From positions 558,001 through 622,000 of the forward strand of contig NZ_FQXA01000001.1 in assembly GCF_900129835.1 (NCBI RefSeq): a DNA stretch of 64,000 nt, written 5' to 3'. Position numbers and translations under genes: made by a program. The number at the start of each line of letters is the position of its first letter. Position 1 is the first letter of the stretch. This DNA is from Stutzerimonas xanthomarina DSM 18231 (GTDB taxonomy: Bacteria > Pseudomonadota > Gammaproteobacteria > Pseudomonadales > Pseudomonadaceae). Below, piece after piece: positions 45,886 through 49,608 of the stretch. The notes under the pieces were generated by a model. That model ran no database searches, was not told the DNA's origin, and saw only the letters and a program-made list of their open reading frames with translations.

Positions 45886-46290
45886 TTACCGATCGATGCG
45901 TTTTTCCATGTTCTGCATCGACACCTGGCTGTTCAGCGTCCAGAAATCATAGAGAACACCGATGAAAAACAGCCCGCCCGTGCAGAGATAAATCAGCCCG
46001 GTAATCCACTTGCCCTGGTACATCCGGTGCACACCGAATACACCCAGGAAGGTCAGCAGAATCCAGGCGACGGTGTAATCGATGGGGCCAGGCTGGAAGC
46101 GCATGTCGGCTTCACGGTCCATCGACGGAATCAGAAACAGGTCGATGATCCAGCCAACGAAAAACAACCCGAGCGTGAAGAACCAGATGGTGCCGGTAAT
46201 CGGCTTGCCATAGTAGAAGCGGTGCGAGCCGAGAAAGCCGAATATCCATAAGAGGTAGCCAATCAGGGTGCTATGGGTGTTCTGACGCAT
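45886..46290 (-). CDS. TM2-domain membrane protein
   Basis: The 134-residue protein has two tandem TM2 modules (YLLWIFGFLGSHRFYYGK / GTIWFFTLGLFFVGWIIDLF and WILLTFLGVFGVHRMYQGK / GLIYLCTGGLFFIGVLYDF). Each is a pair of helices joined by a short loop with the family's G-x-H-R-F/M-Y core. The function of bacterial TM2 proteins is unknown. MRQNTHSTLIG at 46290 is the likely start; the frame is open further but reads as non-protein. It is divergent from the radical-SAM gene and close to its LexA-box-like site. Confidence 0.85.
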   Translation of the reverse strand: MRQNTHSTLIGYLLWIFGFLGSHRFYYGKPITGTIWFFTLGLFFVGWIIDLFLIPSMDREADMRFQPGPIDYTVAWILLTFLGVFGVHRMYQGKWITGLIYLCTGGLFFIGVLYDFWTLNSQVSMQNMEKRIDR

Positions 46291-46391
46291 CTGAGCCTCG
46301 CAGTCCGGTTTGGTATTTCGTGAGCTTATCCGATTCACACTCAATCGCAGCGCCTGCCGAGCGGACACCACACGCCAGAGTCGCCATGATA

Positions 46392-46407
46392 CTGTATATC
46401 CAACCAG
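46392..46407. promoter_or_regulatory. LexA-box-like site (CTG-N10-CAG) before the radical-SAM operon
   Basis: CTGTATATCCAACCAG fits the gammaproteobacterial SOS box spacing CTG-N10-CAG, with a CTGTATAT left half matching the consensus well and a weaker right half. It lies 17 bases upstream of the likely start codon (46424). This suggests DNA-damage induction of the radical-SAM/DNA-metabolism gene pair. Confidence 0.65.
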
Positions 46408-46423
46408 CATCATGGTGATCGTT

Positions 46424-47635
46424 ATGCAGTTGATCGAGAAGCTCAGCGTCCTGGCGGACGCCGCCAAATACGATGTGTCCTGTGCCAGCAGCGGCGCGCC
46501 CAAACGCAGCTCAAAAGGCCGCAGCGGACTTGGCGCCACGGATGGCATGGGCATCTGTCACAGCTTCACCCCGGACGGTCGCTGCGTGGCGCTGCTGAAG
46601 GTTCTGCTGACCAACTTTTGCCTGTACGACTGCCAGTACTGCGTCAACCGGCGCTCCAGCGATGTTCCGCGGGCACGCTTCACTCCAGAAGAAGTGGTAA
46701 CGCTGACACTGGACTTCTACCGCCGCAATTGCATCAGCGGCCTGTTTCTCAGCTCCGGGATCATCCGCTCGGCGGACTACACCATGGAGCAGCTCAACCG
46801 TGTGGCCAGGCTGTTACGTGAAGAGCACGAGTTCCGCGGCTATATTCACCTCAAGACCATACCGGACGCCGATCCGCTGCTGATCGCCGAAGCCGGCCGC
46901 TACGCCGATCGCCTCAGCGTCAACATCGAGCTGCCAACTGAGGCAAGCCTGATCCGCCTGGCGCCGGAAAAGCAGGTAGTGACGATCAAGCAGGCGATGC
47001 ACGCCATTCATGAAGGCGAGACTGAAGCCAAAGCAGAACAGCGCGCACCACGCTTCGCACCAGCCGGCCAGAGTACGCAAATGATTGTCGGGGCTGACGC
47101 TACCGATGACAGCACCATCCTGCACACTGCCCAATCACTGTATGGCGACTTCAGACTGCGGCGCGTCTATTACTCTGCCTTCAGTCCAATCCCGCACAGC
47201 CCCAAGACAGTACCCTTCGAAGCACCGCCGCTGCTGCGCGAGCATCGCCTGTACCAAGCGGACTTCCTGATGCGCGGCTATGGCTTCAAGGCCAGCGAGT
47301 TGTTGGCGGGCCCAGGCAACCTGCCGCTGGACATTGATCCGAAGCTGGCCTGGGCGCTGTCCAATCGTGAGTATTTTCCAGTTGACCTGAATAGCGCTGA
47401 GCCGACGCTGATCGCGCGGATTCCCGGTATCGGGATCTTGAGCGCCAAACGGCTGGTCGCCCTGCGTCGGCAGAAGCGCATCCGTTTTGAAGACCTGACC
47501 CGGCTTCGCTGCTCGCTTGAAAAGGCTAAACTCTTTGTAATCACACAAGACTACCGACCAAGCCTTGCCAATCGGGAGTCTGCGACCTTGCGCCGGAGCC
47601 TCAGTGACGGCCCGGTACAGATGGGCCTGTGGTGA
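46424..47635 (+). CDS. Radical-SAM protein, putative DNA modification/repair (TIGR03916-like)
   Basis: From MQLIEKLSVLADAAKYDVSC the protein is 403 residues. It has the radical-SAM cluster motif CxxxCxxC (C66, C70, C73; TNFCLYDCQYCVNRR) and further conserved cysteines C20 and C45. Its C-terminal helix-hairpin-helix (LIARIPGIGILSAKRLVAL) is a DNA-binding motif. From memory it matches the family named putative DNA modification/repair radical SAM protein, found beside UDG-linked partners. A second ATG at 46412 is possible. The stop overlaps the start of the partner gene (TGATG), so the two are co-translated. The chemistry it performs is not known. Confidence 0.85.
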   Translation: MQLIEKLSVLADAAKYDVSCASSGAPKRSSKGRSGLGATDGMGICHSFTPDGRCVALLKVLLTNFCLYDCQYCVNRRSSDVPRARFTPEEVVTLTLDFYRRNCISGLFLSSGIIRSADYTMEQLNRVARLLREEHEFRGYIHLKTIPDADPLLIAEAGRYADRLSVNIELPTEASLIRLAPEKQVVTIKQAMHAIHEGETEAKAEQRAPRFAPAGQSTQMIVGADATDDSTILHTAQSLYGDFRLRRVYYSAFSPIPHSPKTVPFEAPPLLREHRLYQADFLMRGYGFKASELLAGPGNLPLDIDPKLAWALSNREYFPVDLNSAEPTLIARIPGIGILSAKRLVALRRQKRIRFEDLTRLRCSLEKAKLFVITQDYRPSLANRESATLRRSLSDGPVQMGLW

Positions 47636-48462
47636 TGCAGGTACGGTTTGATGGGAGCTTCGATGACTGGCGCGACAGGGCCCGCGGATTGCTCCAAACC
47701 GGCGTCGCGCCGCATCAAGTCGAGTGGCTTGGCAAGGGCGAGCTAGGTGGCTTGTTCGGCGAGTCCGTTGCGCCCGAACCAATCAAGCCCAGGCCACCCA
47801 TACGCATCCCCCGACCGCTGCTCGTCGAGCTGGAAAGTGCTGCGCGCTTTCGTACAGCTGACCGCTGGAGCTTGCTGTACCGCATTCTCTGGCGAGTCGC
47901 CAAGGGTGATCGCACGGCCCGACTAGTCGGCGATGCTGATGGCAGCGAGCTCCATGCCAGGATCAAGGCGGTACGCCGCGAAGCACATCATATGCATGCG
48001 TTCTTGCGCTTCAGCCCAACGGATCGAGGCAGCGCGTCGGGCTATGTGGCCTGGTTCGAGCCGGCACACGACATCTTGATCAGCGCGGCGCCGCATTTCG
48101 CCGAACGGATGGGCCTGCATTCATGGATGATCGCAACGCCCGATGATGCAGTGCTGTGGGATGGCCAGGTGATGCACTACGCCAACCCTTGCCCGCCCAC
48201 CTGGCGGGAGCTGGCGCAGACCGCACAGGATCCCGGGGGCGAACTGTGGAAGACCTATTACGAAAGCACCTTCAATCCGGCGCGGCTCAACCGCGACGTG
48301 CTGCAGACCAATTTGCCGGTGCGTTTTTGGAAAAACCTGCCGGAAGGGCCACTGATTCCGCAACTGATGAGCCGTGCCCGGGCTGGAGCGCAACGTGACG
48401 GCCAGGCAGAGCGTGTCGCCACCCGTCCAGGCAAGCGCATCGAACGGCCCGGACAGGCATGA
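47635..48462 (+). CDS. DNA-metabolism partner protein (TIGR03915/DUF4130-like)
   Basis: This 275-residue protein corresponds to the family regularly encoded next to the preceding radical-SAM protein and fused in some bacteria to UdgX-type uracil-DNA-binding domains. Recognisable stretches include MHAFLRFSP, YVAWFEPAHDIL, FAERM...WMIATPDDAVLWDG and the C-terminal WKTYYESTFNPARLN / RFWKNLPEG. The function is undefined, and no UDG domain follows here. The C-terminal 30 residues are Arg/Gly-rich. Its stop directly abuts the pilU stop with no base between. Confidence 0.8.
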   Translation: MQVRFDGSFDDWRDRARGLLQTGVAPHQVEWLGKGELGGLFGESVAPEPIKPRPPIRIPRPLLVELESAARFRTADRWSLLYRILWRVAKGDRTARLVGDADGSELHARIKAVRREAHHMHAFLRFSPTDRGSASGYVAWFEPAHDILISAAPHFAERMGLHSWMIATPDDAVLWDGQVMHYANPCPPTWRELAQTAQDPGGELWKTYYESTFNPARLNRDVLQTNLPVRFWKNLPEGPLIPQLMSRARAGAQRDGQAERVATRPGKRIERPGQA

Positions 48463-49608
48463 TCAGCGGAAGCTGCGACCCGTATCGTCGTCGCTGACTT
48501 CCAGCGTCAGCCCTTGTGAAACGCTGGTGAGGTGTTCACCGTCGGTTTCCGACCCCAGCTTGATCATCAGTCGCAGATCATTGGAGGAGTCGGCATGCGC
48601 CAAGGCGTCTTCGTACGTGATCTCGCCCTGGACATAGAGGTTGTACAGCGCCTGATCGAAGGTCTGCATGCCAAGGTCGGTGGAGCGTTTCATCAACGAC
48701 TTGAGCTCGTGAACCTCGCCCTTGCGGATCAGATCAGCCGCCAGCGGCGTGTTGATCAGCACCTCGATCACCGCGCGGCGGCCTTTGCCATCGGGCGTCG
48801 GGATCAGCTGCTGGGCAACGATGGCTTTGAGGTTCAGTGACAGGTCCATCCAGACCTGCTGCTGCCGATCAGCCGGGAAGAAGTTGATGATTCGGTCCAG
48901 CGCCTGGTTGGCGTTGTTGGCGTGCAGAGTCGCAAGGCAGAGGTGGCCGGTTTCAGCGAAGGCCACGGCATAGTCCATGGTCTCGCGCGTCCGCACTTCA
49001 CCGATCAGGATCACATCCGGCGCCTGGCGCAGGGTGTTTTTCAGCGCCACGTCGAAGGAGTCGGTATCGATCCCGACTTCACGCTGGGTGACGATGCAGC
49101 TCTGGTGCTGATGGATGAATTCGATGGGGTCTTCGATGGAGATGATATGGCCGCTGGAGTTCTTGTTGCGGTAGCCGATCATCGCGGCCAACGAGGTCGA
49201 TTTGCCGGTACCGGTCGCACCGACGAACAGCACCAGGCCGCGCTTGGTCATCGCCAGCTTCTTCAGCACCTCAGGAAGTTTCAGGTCTTCCAACGTCGGA
49301 ATGTTGGTCTCGATACGGCGCAATACCATGCCGGCGAGGTTGCGCTGATAGAAGGCACTGACCCGAAAACGACCAATGCCGCGAGCGCTGATCGCAAAGT
49401 TGCATTCGTGGTTCTCGGTGAACTCTCGACGCTGCTGCTCGTTCATCACGGCGTGGACCGTCTCGCGGGTCATCTCCGGCGACATCGGCGTCTTGTTGAC
49501 TGGCAGGATCTTGCCGTTGACCTTCATCGACGGCGGCACGCCAGCGGTGATGAACAGATCGGAGCCGCCCTTTTCGACCATCAGGCGCAACAGTTTCTCG
49601 AATTCCAT
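48463..49608 (-). CDS. pilU: Type IV pilus retraction ATPase PilU
   Basis: The 381-residue hexameric secretion-type ATPase has Walker A GATGTGKST (130-138), an Asp box with SIEDPIEF, Walker B ILIGEVRTRETM and a conserved AGLH-region-like histidine (TLHANNA). PilU assists PilT in pilus retraction and twitching. It lies 76 bases downstream of pilT. Its C-terminus runs beyond the PilT-like core (SDDDTGRSFR). Confidence 0.96.
   Translation of the reverse strand: MEFEKLLRLMVEKGGSDLFITAGVPPSMKVNGKILPVNKTPMSPEMTRETVHAVMNEQQRREFTENHECNFAISARGIGRFRVSAFYQRNLAGMVLRRIETNIPTLEDLKLPEVLKKLAMTKRGLVLFVGATGTGKSTSLAAMIGYRNKNSSGHIISIEDPIEFIHQHQSCIVTQREVGIDTDSFDVALKNTLRQAPDVILIGEVRTRETMDYAVAFAETGHLCLATLHANNANQALDRIINFFPADRQQQVWMDLSLNLKAIVAQQLIPTPDGKGRRAVIEVLINTPLAADLIRKGEVHELKSLMKRSTDLGMQTFDQALYNLYVQGEITYEDALAHADSSNDLRLMIKLGSETDGEHLTSVSQGLTLEVSDDDTGRSFR

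Follow-up and report, generated by a model that had tools for sequence, protein, structure and literature searches.

A LexA-type box before a radical-SAM/DUF4130 gene pair is conserved across the Pseudomonadaceae and points to a putative SOS-controlled DNA-repair operon

Several gene pairs and enzymes described in other bacteria resemble the locus treated here. An operon of COG1573 and COG4277 belongs to the SOS network of Bacteroidetes and, in the same report, is also given for Verrucomicrobia and, with reference to the Caulobacter SOS regulon, for Alphaproteobacteria; that report places the spore photoproduct lyase (SPL; SplB, COG1533) under SOS control in several species as well (PMC8565304). 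The pair CAC3343-CAC3344 of Clostridium acetobutylicum is described as putatively LexA controlled (PMC3828012), and DUF4130 has been predicted to be an enzyme related to mutagenesis, with links to SplB-like radical S-adenosylmethionine (SAM) photolyases and uracil-DNA glycosylases (UDGs) (PMC3765255). It is further reported that TOL5_25060 is up in desiccated Acinetobacter (PMC13130816) and that the Streptomyces LexA regulon contains a radical-SAM gene, whose family is not given there (PMC9380542). We found no published report of the present pair as SOS controlled in Pseudomonas, although work on the SOS response of P. putida, which our search did not cover, may contain one. The pair, which encodes a radical-SAM protein and a DUF4130 protein, lies in a 64,000-nucleotide stretch of Stutzerimonas xanthomarina DSM 18231 (contig NZ_FQXA01000001.1, positions 558,001 to 622,000), called the window below. 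Judging from the conservation of its upstream sequence, the pair is very likely to be controlled by LexA and is likely to be switched on by DNA damage. Its features, in window coordinates, are as follows.

46390..46409, + strand: LexA (SOS) box, the 20-mer TACTGTATATCCAACCAGCA, with the 16-base core CTGTATATCCAACCAG at 46392-46407
46424..47635, + strand: radical-SAM protein of 403 aa, TIGR03916 (rSAM_link_UDG), with an ATG start conserved in orthologues
46481..46585, + strand: three extra invariant cysteines (C20, C45, and C54), a possible auxiliary Fe-S cluster site
46619..46642, + strand: CxxxCxxC radical-SAM cluster motif (C66, C70, and C73; residues 66-73)
47381..47500, + strand: helix-hairpin-helix (HHH_3), residues 320-359, predicted to bind DNA
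47633..47637, + strand: TGATG stop/start overlap (TGA at 47633-47635, ATG at 47635), which suggests translational coupling
47635..48462, + strand: TIGR03915/DUF4130 partner of 275 aa, without a UdgX domain; alternative GTG start at 47629

The core CTGTATATCCAACCAG is placed 16 nucleotides (nt) 5' of the ATG of the radical-SAM gene. On a hand-made scale for the full 20-mer, with a maximum of 36, the box scores 29 and is the sole 20-mer of at least 27 within the 64-kb window; when this stretch was simulated 40 times with a first-order Markov model, a single site of at least 29 arose altogether, or about 0.025 per 64 kb. The same scale gives 29 and 28 for the two lexA operators of this genome and 32 for recA. 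The genome encodes LexA, and boxes of this type stand before lexA, recA, and imuA (the last identified by NF033429 at 230.9 bits). A strict pattern, ACTGTATA-N6-CAGNA, composed post hoc after the site had been seen, has only three matches in the 4.3-Mb genome, which lie 5' of recA, of imuA, and of the pair, and its reversed control has none; neither lexA operator fits the strict pattern. The CTG-N10-CAG site that the original prediction had placed before the pair is borne out by these results.

Such a site might nevertheless be a chance match, with the pair expressed constitutively. Loose patterns are common: CTGT-N8-ACAG with up to two mismatches has 232 matches in the window against 242 expected and is therefore worthless by itself, and CTGT-N9-CAG has 241 + 270 matches genome-wide against 166 + 161 for the reversed pattern. 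However, when the 150 bases 5' of the start were scored at each locus, with control windows taken from the same loci (mostly coding), the box was found at one place in all 71 of the Pseudomonadaceae loci scored outside genus g34 and in 0 of 2637 control windows. These 71 comprise 30/30 loci of the window's own genus (window included), 23/23 from a draw on the family, 3/3 from g26, and 15/15 named Pseudomonas/Stutzerimonas loci. All loci are best-scoring ones (the best 30 of 31 matches and the best 30 of 254 matching family genomes, with further loci being the best 30 of 53 over the cut-off and the best 80 of 592), and the draws may share species. Duplicate genomes were left out of the count (L043, L053, and L064, which equal L016, L029, and L014, and L001, the window's own locus, which equals L002), as were a fragment (L234) and L065-L071, which hold no true family member.

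The spacing of the box is also conserved. From the end of the core to the start codon there are 14-20 nt in 68 of the Pseudomonadaceae loci and 11-12 nt in the three g26 loci, and the 20-mer begins 32-38 nt before the start codon in 68 distinct upstream regions of the family. A box-anchored alignment of these 68 regions has the left ATACTGTA at 97-100% and the right CAG at 100%, with most remaining half-site bases at 69-87%. Conservation drops outside the box, which argues further against a chance match, and a TTG-like trend 20-22 bases 5' of the 20-mer is weak. Thus, a scan for LexA motifs upstream of TIGR03916-family genes across the Pseudomonadaceae, as the original prediction had proposed, finds the operator conserved, and the predicted LexA control of the pair is strongly supported.

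Beyond this family, the box was present in 10/10 named betaproteobacterial and Salinicola loci (4/859 control windows were positive). At four loci (L169, L170, L171, and L206) the start was not located by pattern; a later CTGT-type score was positive for three of them and negative for L206, which brings the betaproteobacterial and Salinicola count to 13/13. Other Gammaproteobacteria in GTDB had the box at 4/5 loci, including L063 with an imperfect right half, and the Comamonadaceae had it at 0/4 called starts and at 3/4 once a GTG overlapping the box was taken as the start. In loci of alphaproteobacterial type, the same place is occupied by a different motif, the clade's own LexA direct repeat GAAC/GTTC-N7 (GAAC-N7-GAAC), in 60 of 64: 24/25 loci whose class was inferred from this very motif (2/602 control windows) and 36/39 named loci, of which L216 is titled Pseudomonadota only (15/3036 control windows). 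L098 became positive for the repeat once its start was moved, and the lexA promoters of three alphaproteobacterial-type genomes bear the same repeat. The alphaproteobacterial LexA motif is given as GTTC-N7-GTTC in the literature (PMC8565304).

LexA was sought in 20 genomes and was over its family cut-off in 15. In three genomes (G069, G096, and G708), no LexA reached the cut-off; their matches, which we take to be UmuD-like, all begin at profile position 64 or beyond, and all three genomes lack the box. Overall, the operator is conserved in orthologous promoters and lost where LexA is lost, with exceptions in Xanthomonadales and in a few alphaproteobacterial and PVC (Planctomycetes-Verrucomicrobia-Chlamydiae) loci. 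Conservation together with the genome-wide strict pattern led us to reject a chance site, and a constitutive pair behind a fortuitous match appears extremely improbable.

A divergent second type of pair occurs within the family, at L034, L035, and L036 (g26) and at L032 and L033 (g34). Its DUF4130 aligns just from residue 80 or 99 onward. This type carries the box in g26, both tested genomes of which have LexA over the cut-off, and lacks it in g34, a genus without true LexA.

We consider it probable that the pair is a LexA-repressed SOS operon. Its radical-SAM enzyme is predicted to act on DNA through its HHH domain and, with DUF4130, would use radical chemistry to repair a damaged nucleotide; such chemistry on damaged DNA is in itself plausible. 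Here and in most of the relatives compared, only a short stretch separates the box from the start codon (11-20 nt in the scored Pseudomonadaceae loci), too short to hold a promoter. A box in that position would be expected to overlap either the -10 region or the transcription start. LexA on the box would then block transcription until its RecA-stimulated cleavage after DNA damage. The two genes, with their overlapping stop and start, occur together in nearly all loci examined and would be made together. The CxxxCxxC cluster would cleave SAM to give the 5'-deoxyadenosyl radical, and the three further invariant cysteines may hold a second cluster for substrate binding or electron transfer. The HHH domain would grip DNA and DUF4130 may present the lesion. 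In many relatives, a fused UdgX could then act on the uracil or abasic product; the Pseudomonadaceae may need no UdgX or may use another glycosylase.

The radical-SAM protein matches TIGR03916, which is presumably of the COG4277 type, at 537.1 bits against a cut-off of 343.5 (NCBIfam). The window protein scores slightly under the gathering thresholds of Pfam Radical_SAM and HHH_3, which at an E value of up to 0.1 match 51/51 and 50/51 aligned relatives, respectively. The partner matches TIGR03915 at 195.4 bits (cut-off, 112.25) and PF13566 at 127.3 bits (cut-off, 27). The original prediction had described a co-translated pair, a TIGR03916-family radical-SAM protein with CxxxCxxC and a C-terminal HHH followed by its usual partner, and this description holds. 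C20, C45, and C54 are invariant in 17/17 and in 51/51 aligned sequences, which suggests that they hold a second Fe-S cluster. DUF4130 and the radical-SAM protein showed no similarity when their profiles were compared. A role in antiphage defense was considered and set aside, as PADLOC matched 0 families for both proteins.

Several observations weigh against this reading. The right half-site in the window is CCAG, one base from ACAG; a CCAG ending also occurs in one of the two lexA boxes of the same genome. A sigma-70 promoter scan of 46250-46480 gave no match. Xanthomonadales keep the gene with no recognizable box near the start (0/5 named loci, L181, L186, L190, L225, and L229, plus L093, which was read by eye), and the genome of L093 has LexA despite its boxless pair. 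Among alphaproteobacterial loci, L185 and L199 have no repeat and L204 has an imperfect one. PVC loci were 0/4 by the CTGT-type score, and three of them were scanned for other motifs too; for both Xanthomonadales and PVC, the search was limited to assumed LexA motif patterns. That the LexA search covered only 20 genomes counts on the same side. In the structural model, the predicted local distance difference test (pLDDT) falls below 50 exactly at C20, C45, and C54, so that the second cluster is only a candidate, and no solved structure of the radical-SAM or DUF4130 family was found by sequence; a DUF4130 profile compared with solved structures returned two chance-level rows (E values of 0.49 and 1.7). 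At two Verrucomicrobiaceae loci (L187 and L232), we also saw inverted GAACA/TGTTC-like and TTCATG/CATGAA arms 5' of the gene, read by eye.

The architecture of the partner bears on what the pair acts upon. DUF4130 lies downstream on the same strand in 90/92 loci of one set and 78/81 of another, and 55 of 78 DUF4130 open reading frames (ORFs) carry a C-terminal extension of at least 120 aa. The four fused proteins tested all match TIGR03914, the UdgX family, at 264-325 bits, and 37 of the 55 extended ORFs have a KRR[LIM]H loop; the KRRIH loop is a mark of covalent UdgX. Fusion of the partner to UdgX-type domains elsewhere, as anticipated in the original prediction, is therefore confirmed in these sets. 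It raises the alternative that the pair serves UdgX, by acting on what the fused domain has captured, a uracil or an abasic site, so as to process or release it, in a parallel to the abasic-site shielding of SRAP proteins. However, the extension is absent in 14 named Pseudomonas/Stutzerimonas loci with an ORF, in Salinicola, and in eight other loci, and the window and those 14 loci keep both pair and box without it. No UDG-fold domain was found in the 275-aa window partner, in which TIGR03915 and DUF4130 alone matched. The UDGs encoded elsewhere in the genome are Ung and a 227-aa UDG, neither in the operon, and the UdgX match of the latter is weak (33.5 bits against a cut-off of 189.95). We thus regard service to UdgX as quite unlikely for this pair.

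Another possibility under SOS control is that the pair modifies DNA instead of repairing it, by introducing a base change that protects or marks it, such as insertion of sulfur taken from an auxiliary cluster that is sacrificed, in the way lipoyl synthase treats its substrate. However, the rows for LipA, HydE, and BioB are no more than about 2 Z units apart, and the barrel may be all that is shared. In addition, the uracil-binding domains of UdgX type to which the partner is fused elsewhere point to damage handling, and damage-inducible control suits repair. DNA modification therefore seems unlikely, and repair by a putatively SOS-induced pair remains the reading that we prefer.

A broader form of the repair reading is possible, if doubtful. 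It would make the pair a new, two-cluster radical-SAM DNA-repair class in which DNA is held by HHH and a catalytically silent DUF4130 of RecJ/Cdc45 fold, with UdgX optional, and which is SOS induced widely in LexA-bearing bacteria and absent from E. coli, B. subtilis, and apparently P. aeruginosa. The RecJ kinship of DUF4130 is a fold lead only and found no support at the level of sequence: comparison for RecJ/Cdc45 (DHH/DHHA1) kinship gave an hhalign probability of 0.1 against 12 RecJ, and no DHH family was among the 14 families found in a Pfam scan of 48 members at an E value of up to 10. Among 14 control genomes, a set that includes E. coli and B. subtilis, the family is present in Caulobacter, Bacteroides, and Thermotoga only. 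Its absence from these E. coli and B. subtilis genomes would explain why classic SOS work missed the pair.

The genomic surroundings bear on how long the pair has been in place. Its neighbors are as follows.

45886..46290 (about), - strand: TM2-domain membrane protein, divergent left neighbor, with its start read by eye
48463..49608, - strand: pilU, convergent right neighbor

The pair had been placed between pyrX and pilU; this is right on the pilU side, but on the other side the divergent TM2 gene (45886-46290) intervenes. TM2 lies upstream in 30/30 loci of the genus and 23/25 of the family draw (two of these 25 are repeats), and pilU lies downstream within the 1.5-kb flank in 30/30 and 19/25, respectively. 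The pair occupies the same TM2-pilU slot across Stutzerimonas and other Pseudomonas genera. The family was matched in 254 of 398 Pseudomonadaceae genomes. Of the pairless genomes, 12 have a clear pilU orthologue, and in all 12 the slot is without the pair (a 13th pairless genome searched had a pilU match of just 54%), and the slot is empty in three sampled genomes of genus g30. Across 45 hand-chosen loci, divergence of the radical-SAM protein correlates with that of the neighbors (Spearman, 0.73-0.78, against 0.80-0.86 for neighbor versus neighbor), as does that of DUF4130 (0.66-0.72), which evolves about three times faster (median divergence of 0.36 versus 0.12). The idea of an inserted accessory module is thus correct in that the slot shows presence and absence, but recent insertion is disfavored by the shared slot and the correlated divergence. 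These patterns fit best with an old resident of the TM2-pilU slot that has been lost several times, with some exchange possible.

Relatives turn up in both the plasmid (158 of 72,556 records) and the phage (10 of 50,697) collections. Mobile carriage was not adopted as an explanation, as no Pseudomonas occurs among the 15 plasmid rows or the ten commonest genera listed (21 further genera exist). One contig from a viral collection (L233), possibly a host contig, has the radical-SAM gene with GAACGTATATCGAAC before it and no DUF4130 on the 8 kb examined. Two 240-kb records of Acinetobacter phage MD-2021a (H18 and H19) carry the gene and may be plasmids or pieces of chromosome.

The pair is consistently boxed in the proteobacteria examined. 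The Pseudomonadaceae have the simple form, with no UdgX and one clean operator, so that genetic work can address the radical-SAM/DUF4130 core in isolation; P. putida GM4FR (L165) is among the carriers. Should the pair turn out to repair a lesion, it would join SPL among radical-SAM DNA-repair systems.

Compared with the described systems, SOS control of this family has already been reported or predicted in Bacteroidetes, Verrucomicrobia, and Alphaproteobacteria and, for a similar pair, in Clostridium; the Pseudomonadaceae would extend the range. What the present sequences add is the probable membership of the Pseudomonadaceae in the SOS-controlled family and the near-perfect conservation of the operator there. 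The window has what is presumably the same radical-SAM/HHH family as the COG1573-COG4277 operon, likewise beside its partner and under a LexA-type box, whereas that operon is described with a UDG where the window has DUF4130 alone, and the LexA motif is clade specific (PMC8565304). The prediction for CAC3343-CAC3344 draws on footprinting and expression data and concerns another phylum (PMC3828012). The UdgX and UdgX-DUF4130 fusions (TIGR03914) resemble the window in that its DUF4130 matches their N-terminal part, and they differ in the UDG-fold domain, for which the window protein gave no match. With SPL, the likeness would be radical-SAM repair of DNA, which in the case of SplB is under SOS control in several species (PMC8565304). 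An NCBIfam scan of the radical-SAM protein returned TIGR03916 alone, from a library in which an SPL model was not confirmed, and SPL was not among the 50 rows listed in the comparison scored by Z, which excludes nothing. What sets the window protein apart from SPL is its HHH domain, its three additional invariant cysteines, and a partner that is nearly always present.
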